Shown here piece by piece: positions 3,917 to 18,028 of a stretch of 43,884 bases of DNA (position 1 is the stretch's first letter; each line of letters starts with the position of its first letter). The stretch covers positions 1-43,884 of IMG/VR virus record IMGVR_UViG_3300045283_000058, one strand, 5' to 3'. The DNA comes from a virus. The position numbers and the translations under genes are program-made. The notes beneath the pieces were generated by a model. That model was not told the origin of the DNA and did no database searches. It saw nothing but the letters and a program-made list of their open reading frames with translations.

Positions 3917-3984
3917 TGCGGCGTGGTGTAGGACTCGGTTACTTCTTGCTATGACGTACCGGGTCCGCCAACTTTCCCGCCGCA
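3917..3984 (+). ncRNA. Y-RNA-like RNA, unit 1 (no tRNA-like domain)
   Basis: First of three related RNA units. A perfect 7-bp closing stem (TGCGGCG at 3917-3923 with CGCCGCA at 3978-3984) encloses blocks shared with the other two units: TGGTGTAG just inside the 5' strand, CGGTTACTTCT in the centre, and CGCCAACTTTCC just before the 3' strand. TGGTG can pair with CGCCA, and CGGT with ACCG. The closing stem differs in sequence from unit to unit but keeps its pairing, which is covariation within one locus. By position upstream of a Ro60 gene and homology to unit 3, it is probably a Y RNA lacking the tRNA-like module. Confidence 0.65.
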
Positions 3985-4072: not shown

Positions 4073-4205
4073 GGCTGCGTGGTGTAGACGGCGGTTCCTT
4101 CTGTGTCGCGGGTTCGATTCCCGTCAGTCGGGTTGTCCGGCTGTAGCTCAGTGGTAGAGCAAGAGGCCCGTAAGGGTTGACCGTGGTCGCCAGTTTCCCG
4201 CAGTC
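4073..4205 (+). ncRNA. Y RNA with permuted tRNA-like domain (YrlA type)
   Basis: The closing stem GGCTGCG (4073-4079)/CGCAGTC (4199-4205) and flanking blocks match units 1 and 2. The middle holds a tRNA-like domain in permuted order: anticodon-stem strand CTTCT (4098-4102), T arm GCGGG-TTCGATT-CCCGT (4108-4124), acceptor strand CAGTCGG (4125-4131), a GTTGT loop, acceptor strand CCGGCTG (4137-4143), TA, D arm GCTC-AGTGGTA-GAGC (4146-4160), then AGAGG (4162-4166) pairing with CTTCT. The acceptor stem forms 7 of 7 pairs with one wobble. A CCC-GTAA-GGG hairpin (4167-4176) and CGGTT/GACCG follow. This is the arrangement known for bacterial Y RNAs, which mimic tRNA and tether Ro60 to polynucleotide phosphorylase. 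It ends 19 bases before the Ro60 start codon. Confidence 0.85.
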
Positions 4206-4224: not shown

Positions 4225-5541
4225 ATGAGAACGAATCGATCCGTCACGCTGCCGCCGGTTCATACGCACGAAGGCGCTCCGGCCCGGCATCTCGCGCCGT
4301 TGCAGGAACTGCGGCGCACGGCGCTCTCCGCGTTGCTCTTTGAGGACACGTTCTATGAGAAGGGCGGCGCGCAGGCGGAACGGGCGGCGGCGCTCATCGC
4401 GCAGTGCAGGCCGGAGGATGTGGCGGCGCTCGCGGTCGAATGCCGCTCGCGGATGTATCTGCGCCATATGCCCCTGTTTCTCGTGCGTGAGCTGGCGCGG
4501 CGCAAGGGCTGCGGGTCGTTCGTCGCGGCGGCGCTGGAATCCGTGATTCAGCGGCCCGACGAACTCACCGAGTATCTGGCGATCTACTGGAAGGATGGCC
4601 GTCAGGCGGTGTCGGCAGGGTCCAAGCGCGGACTGGCGCGCGCCTTCCGCAAGTTCAACGCCGAGACGCTGGCGAAGTACGACCGCGCCCACGCCGTGAA
4701 GCTCCGCGACGTGCTGCGCATCGTTCACAGCAAGCCGTCGTCCGCCGAGCAGTCGGCCGAATGGAAGGCGCTGATCGCGGGCGAACTGCCGTCGCCGGAT
4801 ACGTGGGAAGTCGCGCTCTCTGGCGGCGCTGACAAGCGAGAGACGTTCGAACGATTGTTGAGGGAACGGAAACTTGGCGGGCTCGCGTTCCTGCGCAACC
4901 TCCGCAACATGATCGGCGCGCAGGTCGATCCGGCGCTGATGCGCGAGCGGTTCGCGGGCGGGTTCGGCAAGGTGCTGCCGTTCCGGTTCGTCGCCGCGCT
5001 CCGCTATGCGCCGCAGTTCGTGCGCGAGCTGGACAGCGCCATGCAACGGTGCATCGCTGACTTGCCGCAGTTGCCGGGCACGACCGGCGTACTCGTTGAC
5101 GTGTCGGGCTCAATGGACGCGCCGCTCTCCGCGAAATCCGAGATGAACCGGATCGACGCGGCGGCCGGCCTCGCCGTGCTCGTCTCAGCAGTTGCGGAGT
5201 ATCCGCGCATCTTCACGTTCTCAGAACGGCTGGTCGAGGTGCCACCGTTCGCCGGGTTAGCGCTCGTCAAGACGATCCACGACTCCCAAGCGCACAGCAG
5301 CACGTATCTCGGCGCGTCAGTCGCGGCGCTCAATCAACAGCGGCTGGATCGCCTCATCGTCATCACGGACGAACAGTCGCACGACGCGGTGCCGAATCCG
5401 ACCGCGAAGGGCTACCTGATCAACGTCGCGACCTATCAGCATGGCGTCGGCTATGGGCCGTGGGTTCACATCGATGGCTGGTCAGAACGCGTGATCGATT
5501 TTGTGCGCGAGTACGAAGTGGCGAAGGCGGAGGCTCGCTGA
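4225..5541 (+). CDS. rsr: TROVE-domain RNA-binding protein (Ro60/Rsr ortholog)
   Basis: A 438-residue Ro60-type protein. Residues about 25-270 are the helical-repeat TROVE ring (FRKFNAETLAKYDRAHAVKL and LGGLAFLRNLRNMI are typical TROVE segments). Residues about 285-430 are a von Willebrand A domain with a MIDAS metal site: DVSGSMD at 292-298 and the later Thr/Asp positions near SSTYLG (358-363) and ITDEQ. Ro proteins bind misfolded RNA ends in the ring and Y RNAs on its outside; in Deinococcus the complex works with polynucleotide phosphorylase. Length is slightly short of animal Ro60 (about 540) and typical of bacteria. AAGGAG lies five bases before the ATG. The adjacent Y RNAs make the assignment firm. 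Confidence 0.92.
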   Translation: MRTNRSVTLPPVHTHEGAPARHLAPLQELRRTALSALLFEDTFYEKGGAQAERAAALIAQCRPEDVAALAVECRSRMYLRHMPLFLVRELARRKGCGSFVAAALESVIQRPDELTEYLAIYWKDGRQAVSAGSKRGLARAFRKFNAETLAKYDRAHAVKLRDVLRIVHSKPSSAEQSAEWKALIAGELPSPDTWEVALSGGADKRETFERLLRERKLGGLAFLRNLRNMIGAQVDPALMRERFAGGFGKVLPFRFVAALRYAPQFVRELDSAMQRCIADLPQLPGTTGVLVDVSGSMDAPLSAKSEMNRIDAAAGLAVLVSAVAEYPRIFTFSERLVEVPPFAGLALVKTIHDSQAHSSTYLGASVAALNQQRLDRLIVITDEQSHDAVPNPTAKGYLINVATYQHGVGYGPWVHIDGWSERVIDFVREYEVAKAEAR

Positions 5542-5838
5542 ATGCCCCAACTGGATCGCGCGCGTGAATTTCGCGTCTGCAAGCTGGCGGATGTGAATGT
5601 CTGGCGCTTGGAAACGTTGCGGCGTCCACGGCGGTGGGCGTTCTGGCTCAGGCCGCGATGGGTGCCTGTCGTGGTCTGGCGACTGTTCGACGTGCTCGGT
5701 GAGGGCCAAGACGCGGAATATCCCACTCGCGCCCAAGCGATTGAAGCTATGGAACGTTTCCAACGTCAGGACGCGGAAGAACGCGCTCGCAAAGCGAATC
5801 GCTGGAATTGCGCGGCTTCCTCGGAGGGCCAGCCGTGA
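5542..5838 (+). CDS. hypothetical protein
   Basis: A 98-residue basic protein starting directly after the Ro60 stop. It is rich in Arg and Trp (RRPRRWAFWLRPRWVPVVVWR) and ends in a helix (AQAIEAMERFQRQDAEERARK). The basic surface could bind RNA, which would suit its place behind Ro60, but that is speculation. Its last codons read through the junction element TTCCTCGGAGGGCC, which contains the ribosome site for the next gene. Confidence 0.6.
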   Translation: MPQLDRAREFRVCKLADVNVWRLETLRRPRRWAFWLRPRWVPVVVWRLFDVLGEGQDAEYPTRAQAIEAMERFQRQDAEERARKANRWNCAASSEGQP

Positions 5839-8721: not shown

Positions 8722-8740
8722 GGCGGTCCCTCCCCAGGAG
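8722..8740 (+). repeat. junction element (SD-bearing palindrome)
   Basis: GGCGGTCCCTCCCCAGGAG, identical to 8913-8931. CTCC can pair with GGAG, so the ribosome site of the 8749 gene lies in a small hairpin. It belongs to the family of GC-rich elements found at many gene boundaries in this window. Confidence 0.6.
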
Positions 8741-8748
8741 CAATCGCG

Positions 8749-8943
8749 ATGAACGAGCGGAAGCCAGATGTCAAGGCGATGATTCTGCGCGCGCGCGAAG
8801 CGACGACACAGCTTCGCGATGCCGCCCGTCAGGGGCGCGTGATTGACTTCCGTCAGCGCGACGCACTCGTGATGGCGATTCACGACGCGCTTGATTTGGT
8901 GGAATTTCAACGGGCGGTCCCTCCCCAGGAGGGCCGGGAATGA
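8749..8943 (+). CDS. hypothetical helical protein
   Basis: A 64-residue protein (MNERKPDVKAMILRAR...) of two or three amphipathic helices. The ATG is served by the AGGAG of the upstream junction element. Its own last codons (RAVPPQEGRE) are encoded by a second copy of the same element at 8913-8931. Function unknown. Confidence 0.6.
   Translation: MNERKPDVKAMILRAREATTQLRDAARQGRVIDFRQRDALVMAIHDALDLVEFQRAVPPQEGRE
8913..8931 (+). repeat. junction element (SD-bearing palindrome)
   Basis: An exact copy of the 19-bp element at 8722-8740, here inside the end of the 8749-8943 gene. A related copy (CGGCTCCCCAGGAGGGCCG) lies just past the SPFH gene at 10006-10024. Confidence 0.6.
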
Positions 8944-8973: not shown

Positions 8974-10005
8974 ATGAAGTGGATTGCGCTGCTGATCGGT
9001 GCGCTCGTCATGATGCTCGGCGTCAATCTCGCGCTGCGGTTGCTGAGCATGGCGGACGATTGGGCCGTTGCCGCAGGTTTGCTGCTGCTGCTCGCGATTG
9101 CGTGGATCGCGCTGACCGTCGCCGGTCGCTATTCCAAGCGCGGTATCGATGCGATGAAGGCGCGCGTTCTGTTCGTGATTCTGCTCGCGATCGCGGCGTC
9201 CGGTTGCGGCAGCACGATCCAGCCGGGCCATGCGGGCATCGTAGTCGACTACTACGGCAAGAATCGCGGCGTGCAGGATTACACCGTCACGACCGGGCGC
9301 GTCTGGGTCAACCCATTCACCACGGAAGTGCTCGAATGGCCGACGTTCGTGCAGTCCGTCGTATGGACGCACGATGTGAACGAGGGCCATCCAGCCAATG
9401 AGGAAATCACGTTCACGAACAAGGACCAGATGCAGATCGCGGCCGATATTTCCTTAGCCTATCACCTCGACGTCGCTAAGTTGCCAGCGTTTTACGTGAA
9501 ATTCCGAACCGCGAACATGGACTCGTTCACGCACGGCTATCTGCGGAGCCTGACGCGCGACAAGTTCAATGAAATCGCAGGGCGCTACACCATCGCGCAA
9601 ATCATGGGCGACAACGCTCCATTTCTGAAGGAAGTGCGTGACGCCTTGCAGACAGATCTTGAGCCGTTCGGAGTGATGCTCGAAACACAATTCGGCATCA
9701 TCGGTGCCCCGAGACCGCCTGCGAATGTCGTGGAAGCTATCAATCTTCAGGCGGTGGCACAGCGGCTCGCGCTGACCAAAGAGAACGAGCTGCGACAGGT
9801 GCAGGCCGACGCCGCGAAGATTGTCGCGAAAGCGGAAGGCGATGCGCGCGCCAAGGCCATCTGGGCGGAAGCTGAGGCATCGGCGAATCGGAGAGTAGCG
9901 GACAGCCTCACGACGAACCTGATCGAACTGAAACGACTGGAACGCTGGAATGGCACGTTGCCGCAAGTGACGAGCGGCGCGACGCCATTTCTCTCACTCA
10001 AATGA
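8974..10005 (+). CDS. SPFH/band-7 domain membrane lipoprotein
   Basis: A 343-residue protein of the stomatin/prohibitin/HflK (SPFH) superfamily. Two transmembrane helices lie at about 3-24 and 30-50. A second hydrophobic segment with a lipobox follows (VILLAIAASGC, Cys78). The SPFH domain runs about 85-270 and a coiled coil about 255-310 (NELRQVQADAAKIVAKAEGD). The GAGGTGAT site places the start at 8974; an internal ATG at 9154 would give a plain lipoprotein. Such proteins form membrane scaffolds and can modulate FtsH-type proteases. In a phage it may affect membrane stress or lysis timing, which is inference. Confidence 0.8.
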   Translation: MKWIALLIGALVMMLGVNLALRLLSMADDWAVAAGLLLLLAIAWIALTVAGRYSKRGIDAMKARVLFVILLAIAASGCGSTIQPGHAGIVVDYYGKNRGVQDYTVTTGRVWVNPFTTEVLEWPTFVQSVVWTHDVNEGHPANEEITFTNKDQMQIAADISLAYHLDVAKLPAFYVKFRTANMDSFTHGYLRSLTRDKFNEIAGRYTIAQIMGDNAPFLKEVRDALQTDLEPFGVMLETQFGIIGAPRPPANVVEAINLQAVAQRLALTKENELRQVQADAAKIVAKAEGDARAKAIWAEAEASANRRVADSLTTNLIELKRLERWNGTLPQVTSGATPFLSLK

Positions 10006-10036
10006 CGGCTCCCCAGGAGGGCCGCTAGATTCCCCC

Positions 10037-10351
10037 ATGCGCAAACGGTTTGATTGGGCCGACACGTTAGCGTTGCAGATTCGGGCGGAACGGTTGCCGT
10101 TGCCGACGCGTGAACATCGGTTTCATCCGGTGCGGAAATGGCGCTTTGACCTCGCGTGGGTGGATCGCTTGCTCTATGTCGAGTGCGATGGCGGCGAGTT
10201 CGTGCGGGGATCGCTCGGGCGACACGGAACGGCGCGCGATTGTGAAAAGCAGAATACGGCGGTGCTCCTCGGGTGGAAGCCGTTGCGGTTTGTCGGGTCA
10301 CAGATTCGGAGCGGCTACGCGATTGGCGTGCTGCGGGATGCTCTGCGATGA
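10037..10351 (+). CDS. PD-(D/E)XK-like phage endonuclease
   Basis: A 104-residue protein resembling Vsr/DUF559-like phage nucleases. The motif run is WRFDLAW (Asp38), LLYVECDGG (Glu49), RDCEKQNTAVLLGWKPLRF (Lys71, Asn73). The Asp-Glu-Lys spacing fits a PD-(D/E)XK core. Such enzymes process DNA junctions or mismatches in phage recombination. AGGAGG of the junction element lies about 20 bases upstream. Confidence 0.7.
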   Translation: MRKRFDWADTLALQIRAERLPLPTREHRFHPVRKWRFDLAWVDRLLYVECDGGEFVRGSLGRHGTARDCEKQNTAVLLGWKPLRFVGSQIRSGYAIGVLRDALR

Positions 10352-10566
10352 CGTGGTTGTTCGATCTTCGCCCACCGACGCCAGACGCGGAGACGCGTCG
10401 CGCTGACCTCGCGACAGGTGGGAAGGACGGCGGATCGAGGACGCCGGAAGATTCCTCGGGGACGGACTCGCCCCTCACCGTGACCGAATGGGCCGAGCAG
10501 ATGGTGCCGCACTTTCACGCGGCGTCTGATTTGGTTCCTGGGTTCGGGGGGGGGGCGAGAACGTGA
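10348..10566 (+). CDS. hypothetical protein ending in a poly-G tract
   Basis: A 72-residue acidic, probably disordered protein (MTWLFDLRPPTPDAETRR...) with ATGA overlap to the nuclease gene. Its 3' end contains ten consecutive G (10546-10555) encoding glycines. Slippage there would move translation into a frame that continues about 18 codons (NVTRKSKSRTVATRRAS) and stops against the methyltransferase ATG. Function unknown. Confidence 0.45.
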   Translation: MTWLFDLRPPTPDAETRRADLATGGKDGGSRTPEDSSGTDSPLTVTEWAEQMVPHFHAASDLVPGFGGGART

Positions 10567-10613: not shown

Positions 10614-11425
<812 letters not shown>

Positions 11426-11429
<4 letters not shown>

Positions 11430-11710: not shown

Positions 11711-12097
11711 ATGAACGAGCCTTTGTATTGGACCTTGGAGAATGTCTTCAGCGCGGAGGTGGAGATTTACCTCGGTAACGAACTTGCGGAAATCTCCGTC
11801 GATGCCGAAGTGCCGATGCGCGGCAGGGAGCGCCAGCCCAGGCGCGGGAATCGGATGTATCCGACCTTCATCGATCTGGACCTGTCGATGCGGGACGCGC
11901 CGTCGAAAGGCTTTCGGGTGACGCTGGATGCTGAGACTGCGCGCGATCTGGCGATGCGACTCCTCGAGGCGGCGACGCACGCGGACCTGATCGATCTGCC
12001 CGACGTCGATACATGCGGGCACTGGTTTCCCTGCGATTGTCAACAAAAGTTAGCCGGTGGGGCGTCGCGTCGCGCGCCCTCGGAGGCCAACAGGTAA
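11711..12097 (+). CDS. hypothetical protein
   Basis: A 128-residue acidic alpha/beta protein (MNEPLYWTLENVFSAEVEIY...). The segment DLSMRDAPSKGFRVTLDAET looks like paired strands, and a CGHWFPCDC cysteine cluster sits near the C-terminus. The C-terminal codons (RAPSEANR) run through a CCCTCGGAGG junction element. Family not recognised. Confidence 0.6.
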   Translation: MNEPLYWTLENVFSAEVEIYLGNELAEISVDAEVPMRGRERQPRRGNRMYPTFIDLDLSMRDAPSKGFRVTLDAETARDLAMRLLEAATHADLIDLPDVDTCGHWFPCDCQQKLAGGASRRAPSEANR

Positions 12098-12402: not shown

Positions 12403-12635
12403 TTTTCGGTCGAGCATCGAAACGGTATTTGCGAGAGCGCCGCATTCGTCAGGCTGGCGGCAATCCGCTCGACGTGCAGCCTGAGAGCGTGGATGAAGCG
12501 CTCGATGAATTGACGCGATTGGTTGGGATTTTCGAGCGCGCGGAATTGCCGAGAGCGGCGCATCGGCTCCGCGTGTTGGTCGGATACCTTCGACGCACGA
12601 TCAAGGGGGAACCTGTCGCGGCTCCCTCGGAGTAG
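12399..12635 (+). CDS. hypothetical helical protein
   Basis: A 78-residue basic helical protein (MIFGRASKRYLRERR...); the second half (SVDEALDELTRLVGIFERAEL) is an amphipathic helix pair. It ends in a junction element (VAAPSE then stop) whose GGAG may serve the next gene. Confidence 0.55.
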   Translation: MIFGRASKRYLRERRIRQAGGNPLDVQPESVDEALDELTRLVGIFERAELPRAAHRLRVLVGYLRRTIKGEPVAAPSE

Positions 12636-12640
12636 CCAAG

Positions 12641-12841
12641 ATGAACTGGTTTGCCGATCATCGTCAGGCGTGGATCGCGGAAACGCTTCGCGTGTACGGC
12701 TTCATCAATCGCGAGCATCTACAGCGGAAGTTCGGCATTTCACAGCCGCAGGCGTCGCACGATCTGAAGGTGTTTCAGCGCGACAATCCCGCTGAGATTC
12801 GGTACGACTCGTCGCGAAAATGTTACGTGGCCTCGGAGTAG
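12641..12841 (+). CDS. DeoR-like winged-helix DNA-binding protein
   Basis: A 66-residue protein consisting of one winged helix: RVYGFINREHLQRKFGIS (first helices), QPQASHDLKVFQRD (recognition helix) and the wing strand IRYDSSRKCYVASE. This is the layout of small DeoR/HTH_11 regulators. It ends in the CCTCGGAG junction element and is followed at once by the zinc-ribbon gene. It probably binds an operator nearby. Confidence 0.7.
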   Translation: MNWFADHRQAWIAETLRVYGFINREHLQRKFGISQPQASHDLKVFQRDNPAEIRYDSSRKCYVASE

Positions 12842-13025
12842 CCCCCATGAGCACCAACCCTGAACCAGCATGGCGTCTGAAATGTCCGTGGCCTGAATGC
12901 GGGCACGAATTTCTCAGCGCGTATTCGCGGCTCGCGTACGATTCGTGTCCTCGCTGCCATCAGTCAGTGATGACGAACAAGTTGATCGAACTACCGTTGG
13001 CGGCCCCAGCCGCCGGAGGACGCCA
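12838..13025 (+). repeat. 188-bp duplicated zinc-ribbon module, intact copy
   Basis: This segment recurs as 15463-15512 plus 17264-17409, the two parts separated by the IS element. The second part (146 bp) is identical and the first (50 bp) differs by one base. The duplication starts inside one junction element (GTAGCCCCCATG) and ends at another (GCCGCCGGAGGACGCCA), so a whole gene module was copied between boundary elements recently. Confidence 0.9.
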
Positions 13026-13656
13026 TGAACACGGAACAGAAGGCGATACCGCCGAAGGCGCGCTGCGAGCATTGCGGCCGATACGCGAAGGACCATCTGC
13101 TGGTGAACTACGCGGACGGTCCACTGATCGGCCGCTCGGAGTTGATCTGCCCGACGAGCACGTTCAAACAGCAGCAAAAGCGGCGGGGGACGTAGGGCCC
13201 CGCTCAGGGCCGCCGCCGTGGATTGTGGATCTCGCGATTGAAGCCTCGGGCTGGTCGCCGTGCCGAAGCAAGCGCGGCGTCGTCATCTTCAGAGATGGGA
13301 ACGTCGTCAGCCACGGCCACAACTTCAAGCCGGAAGGGTTCGCCTGCGACGGCTCAGAGGTGTGCAAGGCGACGTGTCGCGCGGAAGCGGTCCACGCGGA
13401 GCAGGATGCGCTAATGGCCGCCGACTGGGGCGCACGGGGAGCTGAGTTGCTGCACGTCAAGAGCGTCGATGGCGCGCTCGTCGCGTCAGGCGGTCCATCG
13501 TGCGTGCAGTGCAGCAAACTGATTCTCGCGTGTGGCGTCGCTGGCATCTGGCTCTATCACGCGGACGGCTGGCAACGCTACGACGCGACGGAATTTCATC
13601 GCCTTTCACTGGCAGCGGAGGCCCGCGCAGGGCAGGAGCCGAGACATGAGCGATGA
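12847..13656 (+). CDS. zinc-ribbon / deaminase-like fusion ORF
   Basis: A 269-residue ORF. Residues 1-58 are a zinc ribbon (C13, C18, C34, C37). Residues about 60-125 read poorly and lie over a convincing gene in another frame (13025-13195). Residues about 127-269 are a cytidine/dCMP-deaminase-like domain with HAEQ (183-186) and PSCVQC (217-222), the zinc-binding HxE and CxxC pair. The deaminase may also start at the GTG at 13225. So this is either a true fusion or two genes joined by chance read-through. Deaminase activity would supply dUMP or edit bases, which is inferred from motifs only. Confidence 0.6.
   Translation: MSTNPEPAWRLKCPWPECGHEFLSAYSRLAYDSCPRCHQSVMTNKLIELPLAAPAAGGRHEHGTEGDTAEGALRALRPIREGPSAGELRGRSTDRPLGVDLPDEHVQTAAKAAGDVGPRSGPPPWIVDLAIEASGWSPCRSKRGVVIFRDGNVVSHGHNFKPEGFACDGSEVCKATCRAEAVHAEQDALMAADWGARGAELLHVKSVDGALVASGGPSCVQCSKLILACGVAGIWLYHADGWQRYDATEFHRLSLAAEARAGQEPRHER
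13025..13195 (+). CDS. small zinc-finger protein nested in another frame
   Basis: A 56-residue ORF, MNTEQKAIPPKAR then CEHCGRYAKDHLLVNYADG and a later Cys. It looks like real protein, unlike the overlapping frame. GGAGG of a GC-rich hairpin lies five bases upstream, and the stop is followed by another junction element (GGCCCCGCTCAGGGCC). It probably is the true gene of this interval. Confidence 0.6.
   Translation: MNTEQKAIPPKARCEHCGRYAKDHLLVNYADGPLIGRSELICPTSTFKQQQKRRGT
13195..13212 (+). repeat. junction element
   Basis: GGGCCCCGCTCAGGGCCG directly after the stop of the nested zinc-finger gene and before the GTG of the deaminase domain. It shows the element in its between-genes form. Confidence 0.6.
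13613..13642 (+). repeat. 30-bp junction element with ribosome site
   Basis: Exactly repeated at 14115-14144. It covers the end of one gene (encoding AEARAGQEP) and carries GGCAGGAG just before the next ATG. It supplies both a C-terminal tail and a Shine-Dalgarno site. Confidence 0.8.
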
Positions 13657-14152
13657 ACCGAACGACAGCAGGAGAGACGGAGCCGCTGTCATTAAAGCAC
13701 TGATCCGTGATGGAACCCGGCCAAAGGCGTGTCCGCTTTGCGGCGGTGAAGCGTACGCCTACTGCACGGTCAACGGCACACAGATGTTCAAGGTCGGCTG
13801 CGCAGCCTGCGGTCTCGAACTGAAGGCCGCGTGGTATCGCGACCAGGACAAGCCAACGAAGGACATTCTGACGCTGTGGAACACGCGGGCTGATTCCGGC
13901 GTCCCCCGCTCAGGGGTGCCCGAATTTGATGCGGAACGAGCGCTGAGAGAGGAATGGTGGGCGAATCACGGCTGCGCGCCCTCAGCGCAGTACGGCGACG
14001 ACAGCGAAATGCAGTGCAACGCGCTCGGGTGTATGCACGACTTCAAACGGGAACCGCTGGCGACCCTCGCCGAGTACGTGTATGACCGTCGCCTGCGACG
14101 TGCGATTGAGTCAACAGCGGAGGCCCGCGCAGGGCAGGAGCCGACGACATGA
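13646..14152 (+). CDS. Lar-like zinc-ribbon protein fused to a second module
   Basis: A 168-residue protein. Residues 28-81 resemble Lar/restriction-alleviation proteins: CPLCGG (29-34), GCAACG (51-56) and a closing LWNTR. Lar proteins modulate host type I restriction and modification. Residues 83-92 (SGVPRSGVPEF) are encoded by a junction element. The rest (ERALREEWWANHGCAP...) is a separate helical module with several Cys. It appears to be two small genes joined in frame. The start follows the 30-bp junction element. Confidence 0.65.
   Translation: MSDEPNDSRRDGAAVIKALIRDGTRPKACPLCGGEAYAYCTVNGTQMFKVGCAACGLELKAAWYRDQDKPTKDILTLWNTRADSGVPRSGVPEFDAERALREEWWANHGCAPSAQYGDDSEMQCNALGCMHDFKREPLATLAEYVYDRRLRRAIESTAEARAGQEPTT
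13896..13923 (+). repeat. in-frame junction element
   Basis: A 28-bp element with core CCCCCGCTCAGGGG, identical to 14324-14351. CCCC pairs with GGGG. Here it lies inside an ORF and encodes GVPRSGVP between two protein modules. Confidence 0.8.
14115..14144 (+). repeat. 30-bp junction element with ribosome site
   Basis: Second exact copy of the 13613-13642 element, again at a gene end just before an ATG. Confidence 0.8.
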
Positions 14153-15522
14153 GAACTCTTGATGCAGCGATGCCGAACGAGCAGGCGGCCACGCTCGGGG
14201 AGATTGCCCGCACGGCCGGAGGTCAGCGCGCCGCTGTGGGCGACGCCATCGACCGCGGCTTGATCTTGCGTCGAATGCTGGAGGAAGCCGGATTCGGACT
14301 TGTGCGACTCGGAGAGGCTGATCCCGGCGTCCCCCGCTCAGGGGTGCCCGACTTCTGGCTGTGCAAGACGTGCGGCTGTCTCTGGCGCGACAACCACGAC
14401 GCCGGACAGTACCCGAATACGGCCATCTGCGACGGCAGCGTGTCGCTCGGGGCGAAGCAGACCTCATGCGCCAAGTGCGAGGCGAACACGTTGCCGCCCA
14501 TCACAGAACCGTTGTATCGCGTCGCCGTCCCCCGCTCAGGGGATTCAACGACTGAGAAACTGTACACGGCGCGAAAGCTGTCAGCGGGCGAAATCACGAT
14601 CAGTACCGTCGATGGCGAAGTTCGGCTCCGAGTCACGGACGCGCAAGCATTGCGCATCGCGAGCGACATTCTTGAACTTGTTCCACGCGATGACGCTGCC
14701 GGAGCGCCACTGAACATCGAACAGGCAAAGTACGACCTTGCACGTATGTCGATGGACGAGGCGCCGCTGGTGTTTCGCCGTTATCTCGAAAAAGCCATCG
14801 CCGAACTTGAGACCCTGCGAACCGCCCAATCCGCCGAGGCCCGCTCAGGGGTGGCCCCGCTGGACCTGGAGCCGATTCGACAACGTGAACGCGCGGCTAC
14901 GCCGACACCTTGGACGGCTGGCTGGTCAGGCGACCCCGACGATCAAGGGAAAGACGATGCGGGGCCGATTGATATTGTTTCGACGTGGCGAGGCGGTGTC
15001 GCGCGTTGTTCGCCAAGTCCAACAGGACATGCGAGCACGTGGGACCAAGTTGAGGCAAACGCGGCATTCATCGCGCACGCTCGGCAGGACATCCCGGCGC
15101 TTCTCGCTGAAATTGACAGATTGCGGGCGCTCTCATCCGAATTGCTGGCGCGTTATTCGTTAGCGCTTCGAGATGGCAAACCAGCACTTGTTAATGATTC
15201 GAACGGCTTGTGGTGTAGCTATCGGCAAGCGGCCCAACGGATCGTAGCCGCCGAAGTTGTGTCGTCCTCAGGGGCCACACCGCAGGAGTGGTTGCCGATT
15301 GAGACCATTCCCGAGAAGGGACCAGTGCTCGTCGCATCGGGCGACTTGATCTGGATCGCGTGCCATCCAAAGCGAACGTTGGCGCAAAGACGTGCTGGCG
15401 GCGGTCCGACGCACTGGTTGCCGCTGCCTCAGCCGCCGGGAACCGTGCGGGCCTCCTCAGGGGTAGCCCCCATGAGCACCAACCCTGAACCAGCGTGGCG
15501 TCTGAAATGTCCATGGTTATAG
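14149..15522 (+). CDS. multi-module fusion ORF, 3' end truncated by transposon
   Basis: A 457-residue ORF that reads as five or more small phage proteins in a row, separated by junction-encoded linkers (GVPRSGVP, VPRSG, ARSGVAP, SSGATP, SSGVAP). Recognisable modules are a Cys-containing unit (LCKTCGCLWRDNH), an Ea22-like unit (FIAHARQDIPALLAEIDRLR), and a DUF551-like unit (EWLPIETIPEKGP to THWLPLPQPPG). It then enters the duplicated zinc ribbon and stops inside the IS element's left end. The right-hand remainder is the ORF at 17243. Rejoined, the ORF would be near 700 residues. Each module alone is an ordinary accessory protein of unknown function. Confidence 0.65.
   Translation: MRTLDAAMPNEQAATLGEIARTAGGQRAAVGDAIDRGLILRRMLEEAGFGLVRLGEADPGVPRSGVPDFWLCKTCGCLWRDNHDAGQYPNTAICDGSVSLGAKQTSCAKCEANTLPPITEPLYRVAVPRSGDSTTEKLYTARKLSAGEITISTVDGEVRLRVTDAQALRIASDILELVPRDDAAGAPLNIEQAKYDLARMSMDEAPLVFRRYLEKAIAELETLRTAQSAEARSGVAPLDLEPIRQRERAATPTPWTAGWSGDPDDQGKDDAGPIDIVSTWRGGVARCSPSPTGHASTWDQVEANAAFIAHARQDIPALLAEIDRLRALSSELLARYSLALRDGKPALVNDSNGLWCSYRQAAQRIVAAEVVSSSGATPQEWLPIETIPEKGPVLVASGDLIWIACHPKRTLAQRRAGGGPTHWLPLPQPPGTVRASSGVAPMSTNPEPAWRLKCPWL
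14324..14351 (+). repeat. in-frame junction element
   Basis: Exact 28-bp copy of 13896-13923, encoding GVPRSGVP between modules of the fusion ORF. A shortened copy is at 14527-14542, a variant at 14836-14857, and CCTCAGGGG variants at 15265-15277, 15447-15471 and 17578-17596. Confidence 0.8.
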
Positions 15523-15559
15523 ACTTGACGCAAGGTAGCGCCGGGCGTATTGTCCCGGA

Positions 15560-16159
15560 ATGCTCAGCAAATCTGACTGGCTCGCTGTGGGTGTAGCTGC
15601 GTCTCTGGGGGCGCTGACATTCGTGGTCGAAACGCCTCTTCTGAAGTATTTGTGCGGCATTGCGTGCGCGGCCGTGGCCGTCTATGCATTCGTCAGGTTT
15701 CTGCGCGCCCAGCATGAGCCGCGTTCTGGTAATGCGATTTCGTGGAAGGAGATGGAAGATCGATTTAAGGAACTAGAGCAATTAAACCTCCAGCACAAGG
15801 GCGACGGACCGCTCCATGCTTTTCAGAATGAAGCCGGGCAAGAGTCTTCCTGGTATGTCGGAGGTGGCGGAAGAAAGGTCACTGAGGACGGGCAGCGACT
15901 ATGCGCGTTAGCTGGACGCAAGCTGAAGGCTGATGGCATCGCAAAGCAATATTTACGACTCGAAAAAGAGTCAATCGATCTGGATCGATGGTTGTGGTTT
16001 CTCGTCGAATTGGGACAAGCGAGCCGAACAATTATCGATGGAGTCACTCATGGCCGCCGTGAACCGACGAGATACCTCTATAACATTCAGTTTCTTACGC
16101 AGTCATCAGTCGCCGGGTGCGTGGAATGTCTCAAACACGAAATGAAGCCTACGCTGTGA
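15560..16159 (+). CDS. passenger membrane protein of unknown function
   Basis: A 199-residue protein with two N-terminal transmembrane helices (WLAVGVAASLGALTFVV; YLCGIACAAVAVYAFVRFL) and a soluble region (SWKEMEDRFKELEQLN, then GRKVTEDGQRLCALAG). It lies wholly inside the IS element, convergent with the transposase and overlapping its end by 11 bases. Codon choice is less GC-rich than the phage genes. It is not a known transposition gene, so it is cargo. Confidence 0.7.
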   Translation: MLSKSDWLAVGVAASLGALTFVVETPLLKYLCGIACAAVAVYAFVRFLRAQHEPRSGNAISWKEMEDRFKELEQLNLQHKGDGPLHAFQNEAGQESSWYVGGGGRKVTEDGQRLCALAGRKLKADGIAKQYLRLEKESIDLDRWLWFLVELGQASRTIIDGVTHGRREPTRYLYNIQFLTQSSVAGCVECLKHEMKPTL

Positions 16160-17057
16160 GTTTTTCGTACGGGAGCTTTTCAGATTCAATGAGCTTCAGC
16201 AACGTATCTCGGAACAGAAACGGATTCTTCCGATTATTGAAACGCCATTCGAACTCATCGAGGTAAGCGTCAAGATGCTTCGCGGAGACTTGATGATAGC
16301 TGCCGACAATCGACCGCTTGAACAGCGACCATACGCCCTCGACGCTGTTCGTGTGAACGTCGCCGCGCACCCATTCCTCTTTCGAGTGGTCGACGGTTTC
16401 GTGCGTCGTGTCGTGGTCAGTCATGTTGCCGTAGCCCGTGTGCTGGTCCGTGTAGATTTTCTCCGCCCACCCGCCAACGTTTTCATCGATGAACTTGCGG
16501 AGCGTTTTCCTATCCGCGCGCTTGTCGACGCGAAGCCGGATACGACCGCCACGTTCGACCGCGCCGAGCACCATCGTTTTGTGATCGAGCGAGCCGCTTC
16601 CGACATGACGCCGACGCCCGCCGACATACGTCTCATCAACTTCGACGGTGCCACCGAGTTTCGGCGCGTTCAATTCCGCCATCGCCTTGCGAATACGGTG
16701 GCAGAGATACCACGCCGTTTTGTAGCTCACGCCAATCGTGCGCTTCAGTTGATTCGCGCTCACGCCCTTTCGGGCCTGTACCATCATGAAGACGGCAAGG
16801 AACCACTTCCAGAGCGGCAGGTGCGAGTCGTGGAAAATCGTGTTCACGCGCACGCTGAACTGATAGCGGCAACCGTCGCAATCAAATTGGTTGCGCTCAA
16901 CAATGCGCGAAATCTTTTTCGACTGGCAACGCGGGCAGGCGATGCCGTCCGGCCAGCGAAGCGCCGCGAGGTAGTTGAAGCACCGTTCCTCGCTGCCGAA
17001 CTGGTCGATCAACTGGCAGATGTCGAGTTCGTGCGTTTTAATGGGTTTCATTTGCAC
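16149..17057 (-). CDS. IS1595-family (ISXO2-like) transposase
   Basis: A 302-residue complete transposase. An N-terminal zinc ribbon (C41, C44, C60, C63) is followed by a helical region (WKWFLAVFMMVQARKGVSAN) and the ISXO2 catalytic domain: VEVDETYVGG (Asp141), IYTDQHTGY (Asp204) and HTNSVEGVWSLFKR (Asn237/Glu240). This matches the DD(N/E) pattern of the family. It catalyses cut-and-paste or copy-out movement of the element. No frameshift or missing catalytic residue is seen, so it may be active. Confidence 0.92.
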   Translation of the reverse strand: MQMKPIKTHELDICQLIDQFGSEERCFNYLAALRWPDGIACPRCQSKKISRIVERNQFDCDGCRYQFSVRVNTIFHDSHLPLWKWFLAVFMMVQARKGVSANQLKRTIGVSYKTAWYLCHRIRKAMAELNAPKLGGTVEVDETYVGGRRRHVGSGSLDHKTMVLGAVERGGRIRLRVDKRADRKTLRKFIDENVGGWAEKIYTDQHTGYGNMTDHDTTHETVDHSKEEWVRGDVHTNSVEGVWSLFKRSIVGSYHQVSAKHLDAYLDEFEWRFNNRKNPFLFRDTLLKLIESEKLPYEKLTA

Positions 17058-17080
17058 ACGCTGATTTATGTGTAAGCGAA

Positions 17081-17224
17081 ATGTCTAAAAAATCTCCGAA
17101 GCATCCGCGCCACATGACCGACGCCGAAGCGATGGCGCACTTGTTCCACCCGCACGTCATAAAGCACGTATCTAAAGCAGTTACGGCTAAGGGCGGGAAG
17201 AAGAAAGCAACCACAAAGAGATGA
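17081..17224 (+). CDS. small basic ORF in the IS element
   Basis: A 47-residue ORF (MSKKSPKHPRHMTDAEAM...) that is His- and Lys-rich and ends in KKKATTKR. It is divergent from the transposase, 23 bases away, and ends just before the right inverted repeat. It may be a second passenger or regulator. Confidence 0.45.
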   Translation: MSKKSPKHPRHMTDAEAMAHLFHPHVIKHVSKAVTAKGGKKKATTKR

Positions 17225-17242
17225 TACCCGAGGGGCTACCTT

Positions 17243-18028
17243 GTGTCAAGTATACAATCATCGAAATGTCCGTGGCCTGAATGCGGGCACGAATTTCTCA
17301 GCGCGTATTCGCGGCTCGCGTACGATTCGTGTCCTCGCTGCCATCAGTCAGTGATGACGAACAAGTTGATCGAACTACCGTTGGCGGCCCCAGCCGCCGG
17401 AGGACGCCAGCAAGAGATTCACGAGAGTCGCAGCCCGGTGGGTGACGGGCAGGACGCCTTCGTCCGCGTGCTGCAACGCGTCGCCGAGCTACCGGACCGA
17501 ACCAGCCCGGACGATTGGCCGGAAGCGATGCTCGTCACCGGCGAGGAACTGCGCGCGATCCTGCTCGACGAACTTCCGCGGGCCTCCTCAGGGGCCAGCG
17601 CCCCACGGTGTCAGAAAGTGTGTGAGGTCAATGCTGCGTATGGTCCGGCGTGCGGGAAGCCTTGTCAATTCGCGGAAGGGCATACGGGGCGCTGCGAATG
17701 CGGCTGTTACAACTGGGCCAGCGCCCCACCCGACGCCAACGATGCGAGTCGGCACTACGCCGAGCGATTACACCGCGAGAAGATCGAGCGACTTCTCACC
17801 GAAGTTCGAGACTTGTTGGTCTGGCGCTTTCGTGACGATCCACCCCCATCCATAAACGCGGTAGATCCCAGCGCCACGGATCCGGGAACGCCGACCACGC
17901 GCGACGCCTCATCTTCGTCTTCGTCCGAGATTCCGAACGTTGGTGGTGCGTTAACGCATTGGATTGAGAGATGTTACCGGGCGGAAGCCGAGATCCAGCA
18001 GTTGAAGAAGGACCGGGAACCCCGATGA
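17243..18028 (+). CDS. right-hand remainder of the split fusion ORF
   Basis: A 261-residue ORF whose GTG lies in the transposon end; the first residues (MSSIQSS) are transposon-derived. Then come the zinc ribbon (KCPWPECGHEF...CPRCHQ), a helical unit (PDDWPEAMLVTGEELRAI), a linker (RASSGASAP), a cysteine-rich unit (CQKVCEVNAAYGPACG...CECGCYNW), and a helical tail ending IERCYRAEAEIQQLKKD. It continues the module pattern of the 14149 ORF. Whether the GTG is used is unknown. Confidence 0.6.
   Translation: MSSIQSSKCPWPECGHEFLSAYSRLAYDSCPRCHQSVMTNKLIELPLAAPAAGGRQQEIHESRSPVGDGQDAFVRVLQRVAELPDRTSPDDWPEAMLVTGEELRAILLDELPRASSGASAPRCQKVCEVNAAYGPACGKPCQFAEGHTGRCECGCYNWASAPPDANDASRHYAERLHREKIERLLTEVRDLLVWRFRDDPPPSINAVDPSATDPGTPTTRDASSSSSSEIPNVGGALTHWIERCYRAEAEIQQLKKDREPR

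Follow-up and report, generated by a model that had tools for sequence, protein, structure and literature searches.

Can a single short piece of DNA both hold neighbouring genes apart and join protein domains together? The question is raised by a GC-rich palindromic element in an IMG/VR virus record (IMGVR_UViG_3300045283_000058), the whole of which, 43,884 bp, is the window analysed here. The phage that it represents has a portal protein of the P22 type (phrog_156, E 2e-66). A preliminary description of the sequence had reported the element at 15 or more sites, lying between genes at some and translated as part of a protein at others, and had interpreted this as a modular grammar in which genes are shuffled as cassettes and can be fused. 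In our analysis the observation is confirmed and the interpretation is partly supported. We consider it reasonably probable that the element acts as a short repeated joint by which modules in the early region of this phage are shuffled and fused, presumably by recombination. Coordinates are on the + strand unless stated otherwise.

A count of the motifs over the whole record gave 17 sites on the + strand, all of them at 5.8-17.6 kb, in the non-structural or early region. None of the 17 is at 18.3-43.9 kb, so that approximately 25 kb of structural genes are without any, and the - strand has one site. The asymmetry is found in each motif, with four copies of CCTCGGAG on the + strand and none on the other, eight and one of CTCAGGG(G/C), three and none of CTCCCCAGGAG, and two and none of CCCGCGCAGGG. 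In 100 order-3 Markov simulations CCCGCTCAGGG, of which five copies are observed, did not appear once, and CTCAGGGG, observed seven times, had a mean of 0.36 and a maximum of 3; GC content is ruled out by these simulations as the explanation of the element. Neither of the outcomes named beforehand as contrary to the preliminary description appeared, as the element is absent from the structural genes and is not accounted for by base composition. Chi is an octamer that acts as a recombination hot spot, and the strand split of CTCAGGGG (7:0) could be taken to mean that the element is a Chi-like octamer of the host, or else a phage repressor site. All seven copies are inside 4 kb, however, with the remaining 40 kb devoid of them, and the reading frame is fixed, which makes this explanation extremely unlikely.

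The element exists as four related cores rather than one uniform sequence, and ranges in size from 14 to 39 bp. The CTCAGGG and CCCGCGCAGGG cores are close to each other (80% over 20 nt), and the CCTCGGAG and CTCAGGGG cores are connected through the two copies of a duplicated cassette, cassette A, that is described below. The CTCCCCAGGAG core is only weakly like the others and was missed by a sequence profile of the element. The exact repeats of the preliminary description are where it had placed them, 28 bp at 13896 and 14324, 30 bp at 13613 and 14115, and 19 bp at 8722 and 8913. Repeated joints of 30 and 39 bp are surrounded by unrelated DNA.

At gene boundaries the element packs the end of the preceding gene, a ribosome site and the start of the following one into 20-30 bp. 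Ten of the 17 sites have a gene end at most 35 nt away or lie that close upstream of a start, a condition that 10.9% of the positions in the early region satisfy (binomial P 2.3e-6). This is the enrichment that the preliminary description called for, although the count is weakened by its reliance on our own list of 29 + strand genes, six of them with a misplaced start, which was left as run. All four CCTCGGAG sites coincide with the last codons of a gene or with its stop, in the same frame (SE), as at 5811-5838, the end of the open reading frame (ORF) 5542-5838 (tail ASSEGQP-stop), and at 12070-12097, the final codons of ORF 11711-12097 (tail PSEANR-stop). At 12615-12643 (PSE-stop) and 12824-12849 (ASE-stop, at cassette A copy 1) the sequence is TCG GAG TAG, in which GGAG is also the ribosome site of the following ATG, at 12641 and 12847 respectively. 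A CTCCCCAGGAG element at 8722-8748 brings the ribosome site for the ATG at 8749, and the element at 8913-8940, with 19 bp in common, is at the end of the resulting ORF, 8749-8943 (tail VPPQEGRE-stop). The CCCGCGCAGGGCAGGAG element at 13613-13644 and that at 14115-14146 are identical over 30 bp; they close two unrelated genes with the same tail, EARAGQEP, and bring AGGAG to the next ATG, at 13646 and 14149. The proposal that the element supplies the ribosome site between genes stands for 8722, 13613 and 14115, with a spacing of 7-8 nt to the ATG, but not so readily for the element at 10003-10030, directly after ORF 8974-10005, where the AGGAGG at 10006 ends 16 nt before the ATG at 10037 and is far for a ribosome site.

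These features would also fit an element that is a translation signal and nothing more, comparable to what is found in cluster K mycobacteriophages: a hairpin that carries a ribosome site and is associated with starts or with coupling, the in-frame copies being relics of old gene fusions with no role in recombination. AGGAG or GGAG is found 7-8 nt 5' of the ATG not only at the three sites just named but also at 12615 and 12824, and there are GC-rich hairpins with the ribosome site in the 3' arm. Such a signal does not explain why the in-frame copies retain identical DNA when they no longer start a gene, and the recent duplication of a cassette bordered by junctions requires movement; we therefore regard it as unlikely to be the whole explanation. 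In the hairpins themselves, 30-base stretches at 18 places (16 of the 17 sites, with 5819 omitted, together with 13012 and 17713) had a mean energy of -11.15 kcal/mol, whereas 3000 places taken at random averaged -7.70 (sd 3.05), a comparison that is not unbiased because the places were chosen partly as GC-rich palindromes. Translational coupling through the hairpin is possible. Intrinsic terminators were rejected, since the hairpins have no following T run, a judgement made by reading with no terminator scan.

The remaining seven sites are read in frame inside ORFs, away from starts. Here the same DNA is found at the domain seams of mosaic ORFs, in one fixed frame, where it encodes a Ser-Gly/Pro linker. 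It might be argued that selection acts on the linker at the protein level only, Ser-Gly/Pro being favoured between domains and the similarity of the DNA being explained by the shortness and recent copying of the linkers. All eight CTCAGGG copies do read as Ser-Gly in a single frame, and comparable Pro/Ala-rich linkers are found in other mosaic phage proteins. However, Ser-Gly is encoded as TCA GGG in all eight, whereas one of the 45 Ser-Gly pairs counted across 18 other genes uses these codons, which points to conservation of the DNA and not of the peptide alone. The same DNA also serves as gene end and ribosome site, and the CTCAGGG copy at 13199 doubles as a boundary behind the stop of an ORF. 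An explanation by the protein linker alone is already weakened by these results and we consider it quite unlikely.

Six of the eight CTCAGGG copies are at a gene or domain edge according to an outside relative or a second copy in this genome, which bears out the in-frame use as a linker; for the other two, at 14331 and 14529, no relatives were found that could show an edge. Palindromic cores and in-frame copies within ORFs are also what a small selfish palindromic element inserting in genes, like those of Rickettsia, might leave behind. None of the eight copies was seen interrupting a known domain (the six tested are all at module edges), the element measures only 14-39 bp, and most sites hold gene ends or ribosome sites, all of which renders a selfish element very unlikely.

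The edges can be followed along the region. Zinc-ribbon ORF B (13025-13198, 57 aa) is enclosed by the long ORF 12847-13656 but is read in a different frame, and for this reason a single long protein fusing cassette A to a deaminase was rejected as a certainty. The CCCGCTCAGGG junction element at 13193-13219 (VGPRSGPPP) is between the end of ORF B and the dCMP-deaminase-like module at 13225-13656 (phrog_174, E 3e-12), the edge of which is given by stand-alone genes in five other phage loci (L012-L016; loci of our comparison set are numbered with an L) and in virus Rctr197k. ORF 13646-14152 comprises a Lar-like zinc domain, the element at 13895-13922 (SGVPRSGVP) and a second module. The Lar_restr_allev match reaches the end of the profile (58/58) at residue 82, two residues before the element, and weak local relatives of the domain stop at the same WN-R motif. 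The mosaic ORF of 457 aa at 14149-15522, the C-terminal end of which is cut by an insertion sequence, has in-frame elements at 14323-14350 (PGVPRSGVP), 14521-14548 (AVPRSGDS), 14832-14859 (AEARSGVAP, just upstream of a phrog_722-like module), 15258-15283 (SSSGATP, just upstream of a DUF551-like module) and 15446-15474 (RASSGVAP-M, joining the ORF to cassette A copy 2). In the phrog_722-like set (128 rows, reduced to 117 distinct loci by merging identical rows) an ATG or GTG is at most 13 codons upstream of the module in 112 of 117 and a stop is within 30 codons in 61 of 117; the module is the exact start of the coding sequence in phi105, that of Asapag begins three codons before it, and mu1/6 annotates a fusion. 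In L185, L186, L188, L190, L191, L196, L201 and L203, where DUF551 is encoded by a stand-alone gene, the domain begins 3-5 residues into the protein. The element at 17577-17603 (RASSGASAP) is at the end of the ELPDRTSP/VTGEEL module, which ends shortly before the end of gene phiKM1_040 and is internal to longer proteins in phages Aval and BgManors32. No confirmed relatives of the 457-aa ORF were found in IMG/VR and no DNA relatives among phages, and a search with another module gave no phage match. A single-sequence AlphaFold model of this ORF had a mean pLDDT of 37.7 and was not used.

Movement is indicated by cassette A, a zinc-ribbon cassette that is present twice, its left end falling within the element and its right end at a different GC-rich junction at a gene start. 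Copy 1 (12839-13025) extends over 187 bp from the TAG at 12839 to the A of the ATG at 13025, and 186 of its 187 nt are identical to copy 2, which is split by an insertion (15464-15511 and 17271-17409). On the left the copies diverge inside the element and on the right within the start codon of the next gene, the right border of copy 1 being the A of that ATG, after the hairpin GGCGGC-CCCA-GCCGCC and GGAGG. Before the ATG of the cassette, copy 1 has GCC TCG GAG TAG and copy 2 has GCC TCC TCA GGG GTA GCC CCC, and it is by these 4 nt, which shift the frame by a net +1 at the left joint, that a separate gene becomes an in-frame fusion. One junction is thereby known in both a gene-separating form (copy 1) and a fusing form (copy 2). 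This supports the view that at least one cassette has moved with its borders at junction sequences, cassette A being the one case in which identity starts and stops at such sequences. The suggestion that cassettes are shuffled and fused is upheld to the extent of this duplication and its two forms, whereas recombination itself is something that we infer.

The insertion came later and split a fused ORF of 706 codons; when it is removed to restore the empty site the mosaic ORF stays open over this length. It is an IS1595-family element of 1751 bp on the - strand at 15512-17262 (PF12762, E 4e-38; PF12760), with a transposase at 16149-17057 (- strand) and a passenger ORF of 199 aa at 15560-16159 (+ strand) for which Pfam gives no match at E 1. 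Its membership of the family is indicated by the DDE_Tnp_IS1595 domain, the zinc ribbon, matching inverted ends and an 8-bp target duplication, GAAATGTC, at 15504-15511 and 17263-17270. Beyond it the rest of the mosaic ORF (17263-18028) contains the right part of cassette A copy 2, the ELPDRTSP module and a Cys-rich module. A second repeated in-frame linker, GGCCAGCGCCCCAC (ASAP), flanks the Cys-rich module on both sides, at 17594 and 17713.

The occurrence of the same joint at gene seams and at domain seams suggests that it is used both to shuffle genes and to fuse them. Recombination by RecA or by phage functions, or else slippage, could make use of the 14-39 bp of homology that repeated joints provide, and modules might be duplicated, deleted or fused through these joints, with selection retaining them at module edges. 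Translational coupling is a general mechanism, and in what would be a weaker part of this scheme a GC-rich hairpin at a gene boundary may keep the ribosome site masked until the ribosome coming from the upstream gene opens the hairpin.

Several results weigh against the joint as an agent of shuffling and fusion. The record, which may be incomplete, yielded no recognisable protein of the RecT, Redbeta, Erf or Sak type among those scanned. The hairpins at 12078, 12831 and 17713 are ordinary. The first structure on the alignment of the 17 sites pairs 60.3%, no better than shuffles, and a pairing of 79.4% (5 of 500 shuffles) was reached only for a structure shifted by one column and picked after the slide table. 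In 8 of 128 loci the DNA 5' of the phrog_722-like module has a local repeat of unusual length (a percentile of 0.05 or below), which is the chance level, and the window itself reaches only 0.141; the 128 were retained from 160 by leaving out matches that were unplaceable, began outside module residues 1-6 or were less than 150 nt from the locus edge. Long DUF551 ORFs from loci not chosen for linkers have in-frame repeats in 2 of 15 cases, compared with 9 of 233 for the other long ORFs (Fisher P 0.14; L292, from the same contig as L193, was omitted), and in the set L181-L205 the figures are 2 of 6 and 6 of 87 respectively (P 0.08). The repeats of two other phages, L025 and L068, which are taken up below as parallels, are not palindromic. 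The modular grammar of the preliminary description is well supported in its boundary and linker roles; in its wider form it is a hypothesis for which a few independent cases offer parallels.

The sequence of the element is private to this phage. That the family would be common to related phages was not borne out, as it is absent from the five portal-related contigs L005-L009, save for one GCTCAGGG in L005, and the element profile gave two hits, at chance level, in 780 kb of other phage DNA (94 of 292 loci scanned). A 16-mer core of the element matched two IMG/VR contigs. Repeated in-frame linkers of other sequence are recurrent in other phages, not general. When ORFs of 200 or more codons that do not overlap one another, 942 in all, were scanned for in-frame repeats, a 616-aa mosaic ORF of L025, an unrelated phage with no matching portal in the record, came near the top. 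It has CGGCTCCCGTCCTTCCAC at four places in one frame, three exact and one with a mismatch, and repeats of 23 and 22 nt that directly follow and directly precede its DUF551 domain and also follow the WDGH domain. In L068, GAGCGGCGGCATGA is found at the overlapping stop-starts of four successive genes. Weaker in-frame repeats are seen in mosaic-looking ORFs of L184, L198, L238, L241, L246 and L252; the high scorers L196, L033 and L127, which look like repeat, coiled-coil and Rhs-like proteins, were not counted. Repeat pairs in loci not chosen for linkers were in frame 17 times and out of frame three times, where codon shuffles expect 0.8 in frame. DUF551 was found in 1 of 399 genomes of one order with a two-row alignment and in 7 of 399 with a 15-row alignment.

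Other kinds of repeated gene ends and arrays were seen in the same loci. Genes of L068 (4958-5872) have near-identical 3' tails and unrelated remainders, and identical 5' gene ends of 16-34 bp with unrelated remainders are found in L068 (3333/3874), L094 (3813-5386) and L087 (3810/3989). L132 has a perfect palindrome, TGTTCCACGTGGAACA, an 18-mer being present seven times forward and three times in reverse within 8 kb, with some copies just 5' of gene starts; this resembles a partition site. In L104, a Dyella contig, eleven copies of GCCGCTTAACTCCAGCGTTA with a spacing of 345-1130 bp make up an integron-like (attC-like) array that holds a phrog_722-like module. An attC-like array was noticed in this locus only, and the window was not searched for attC sites.

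Short conserved boundary sequences of mosaic phages are reportedly a theme of work on lambdoid phages. Homologous exchange at such sequences has been proposed, and in Island3 the genes for gp67 and gp68 have in common a 3' end, with approximately 50-60 bp shared, and an 18-residue C-terminal tail (PMC3029335). The window is similar in that the same short DNA closes unrelated neighbouring genes (30 bp at 13613 and 14115) and in that the identity of cassette A starts and stops at junction sequences. It differs in that its element is not shared between different phage genomes, being absent from L005-L009 and at chance level elsewhere, and in having approximately 17 copies in one genome with the same DNA also in frame between fused domains. 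In cluster K mycobacteriophages the SAS/ESAS (PMC3203893, available part), of which the SAS is an asymmetric sequence of 13 bp located 3-7 bp upstream of starts, resemble the element in being repeated, mostly in one orientation and in the non-structural region only, in holding a ribosome site and in that they may overlap the upstream stop. Unlike them, seven of the 17 copies in the window are inside ORFs away from starts, and use as an in-frame linker is not described for SAS in that part of the paper. Ea22 proteins are mosaic, with DUF551 termed a portable domain (PMC10834534), and domain shuffling in phages has been surveyed (PMC10684548); the window likewise has phage proteins made of exchangeable domains, DUF551 included, but a repeated DNA joint is not described in the accessible portions of these two papers, and the words 'linker' and 'boundary' are absent from the second. 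Rickettsia palindromic elements, as far as the accessible part of a review relates (PMC10969869), are approximately 150 bp long, are inserted in genes and are read in frame in proteins. The window also has palindromic repeats that are translated in frame, although its copies are of 14-39 bp and at module edges, not of approximately 150 bp in gene bodies. Among titles and abstract openings, with the subscription literature mostly uncovered, no published description was found of one repeat as both gene boundary and interdomain linker. Boundary sequences are already known; the use of one repeat in both roles is the new part.

Other features of the window are of separate interest. An (AGGC)8.5 tract at 10631-10664 is just inside the start of a methyltransferase-like gene (10614-11429), and one AGGC unit gained or lost breaks the frame after approximately 30 codons; there is also a G10 tract at 10546 in the preceding ORF. 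This looks like a phase-variable gene in a phage. A Ro60/TROVE-like protein is encoded at 4225-5541 (PF05731, PF25045), and right upstream of it, at 4079-4187, is a Y RNA-like RNA (YrlA, 43.9 bits, E 9e-8, below the Rfam gathering score of 69), the 5' part of which is present in three diverged copies, at 3919, 3998 and 4075. The early region also encodes a Band_7/SPFH protein (8974-10005) with an N-terminal membrane- or lipoprotein-like stretch.

It is possible, and we put it forward tentatively as something that may well not hold generally, that phage early regions use repeated joints private to each genome for shuffling genes as well as protein domains. A single joint sequence would multiply within the genome; between genes it would provide the stop, the ribosome site and the start, and an indel that changes the frame would make an interdomain linker of it. 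Unrelated phages such as L025 and L068 might then have evolved joints of their own, and the domain mosaicism of early proteins could in part be a by-product of recombination at gene boundaries. What is seen in this genome, namely repeated joints, a recent move of a cassette bordered on both sides by junction sequences and one junction in a separating and a fusing form, offers a concrete way, open to testing, in which multidomain proteins could arise from small genes.

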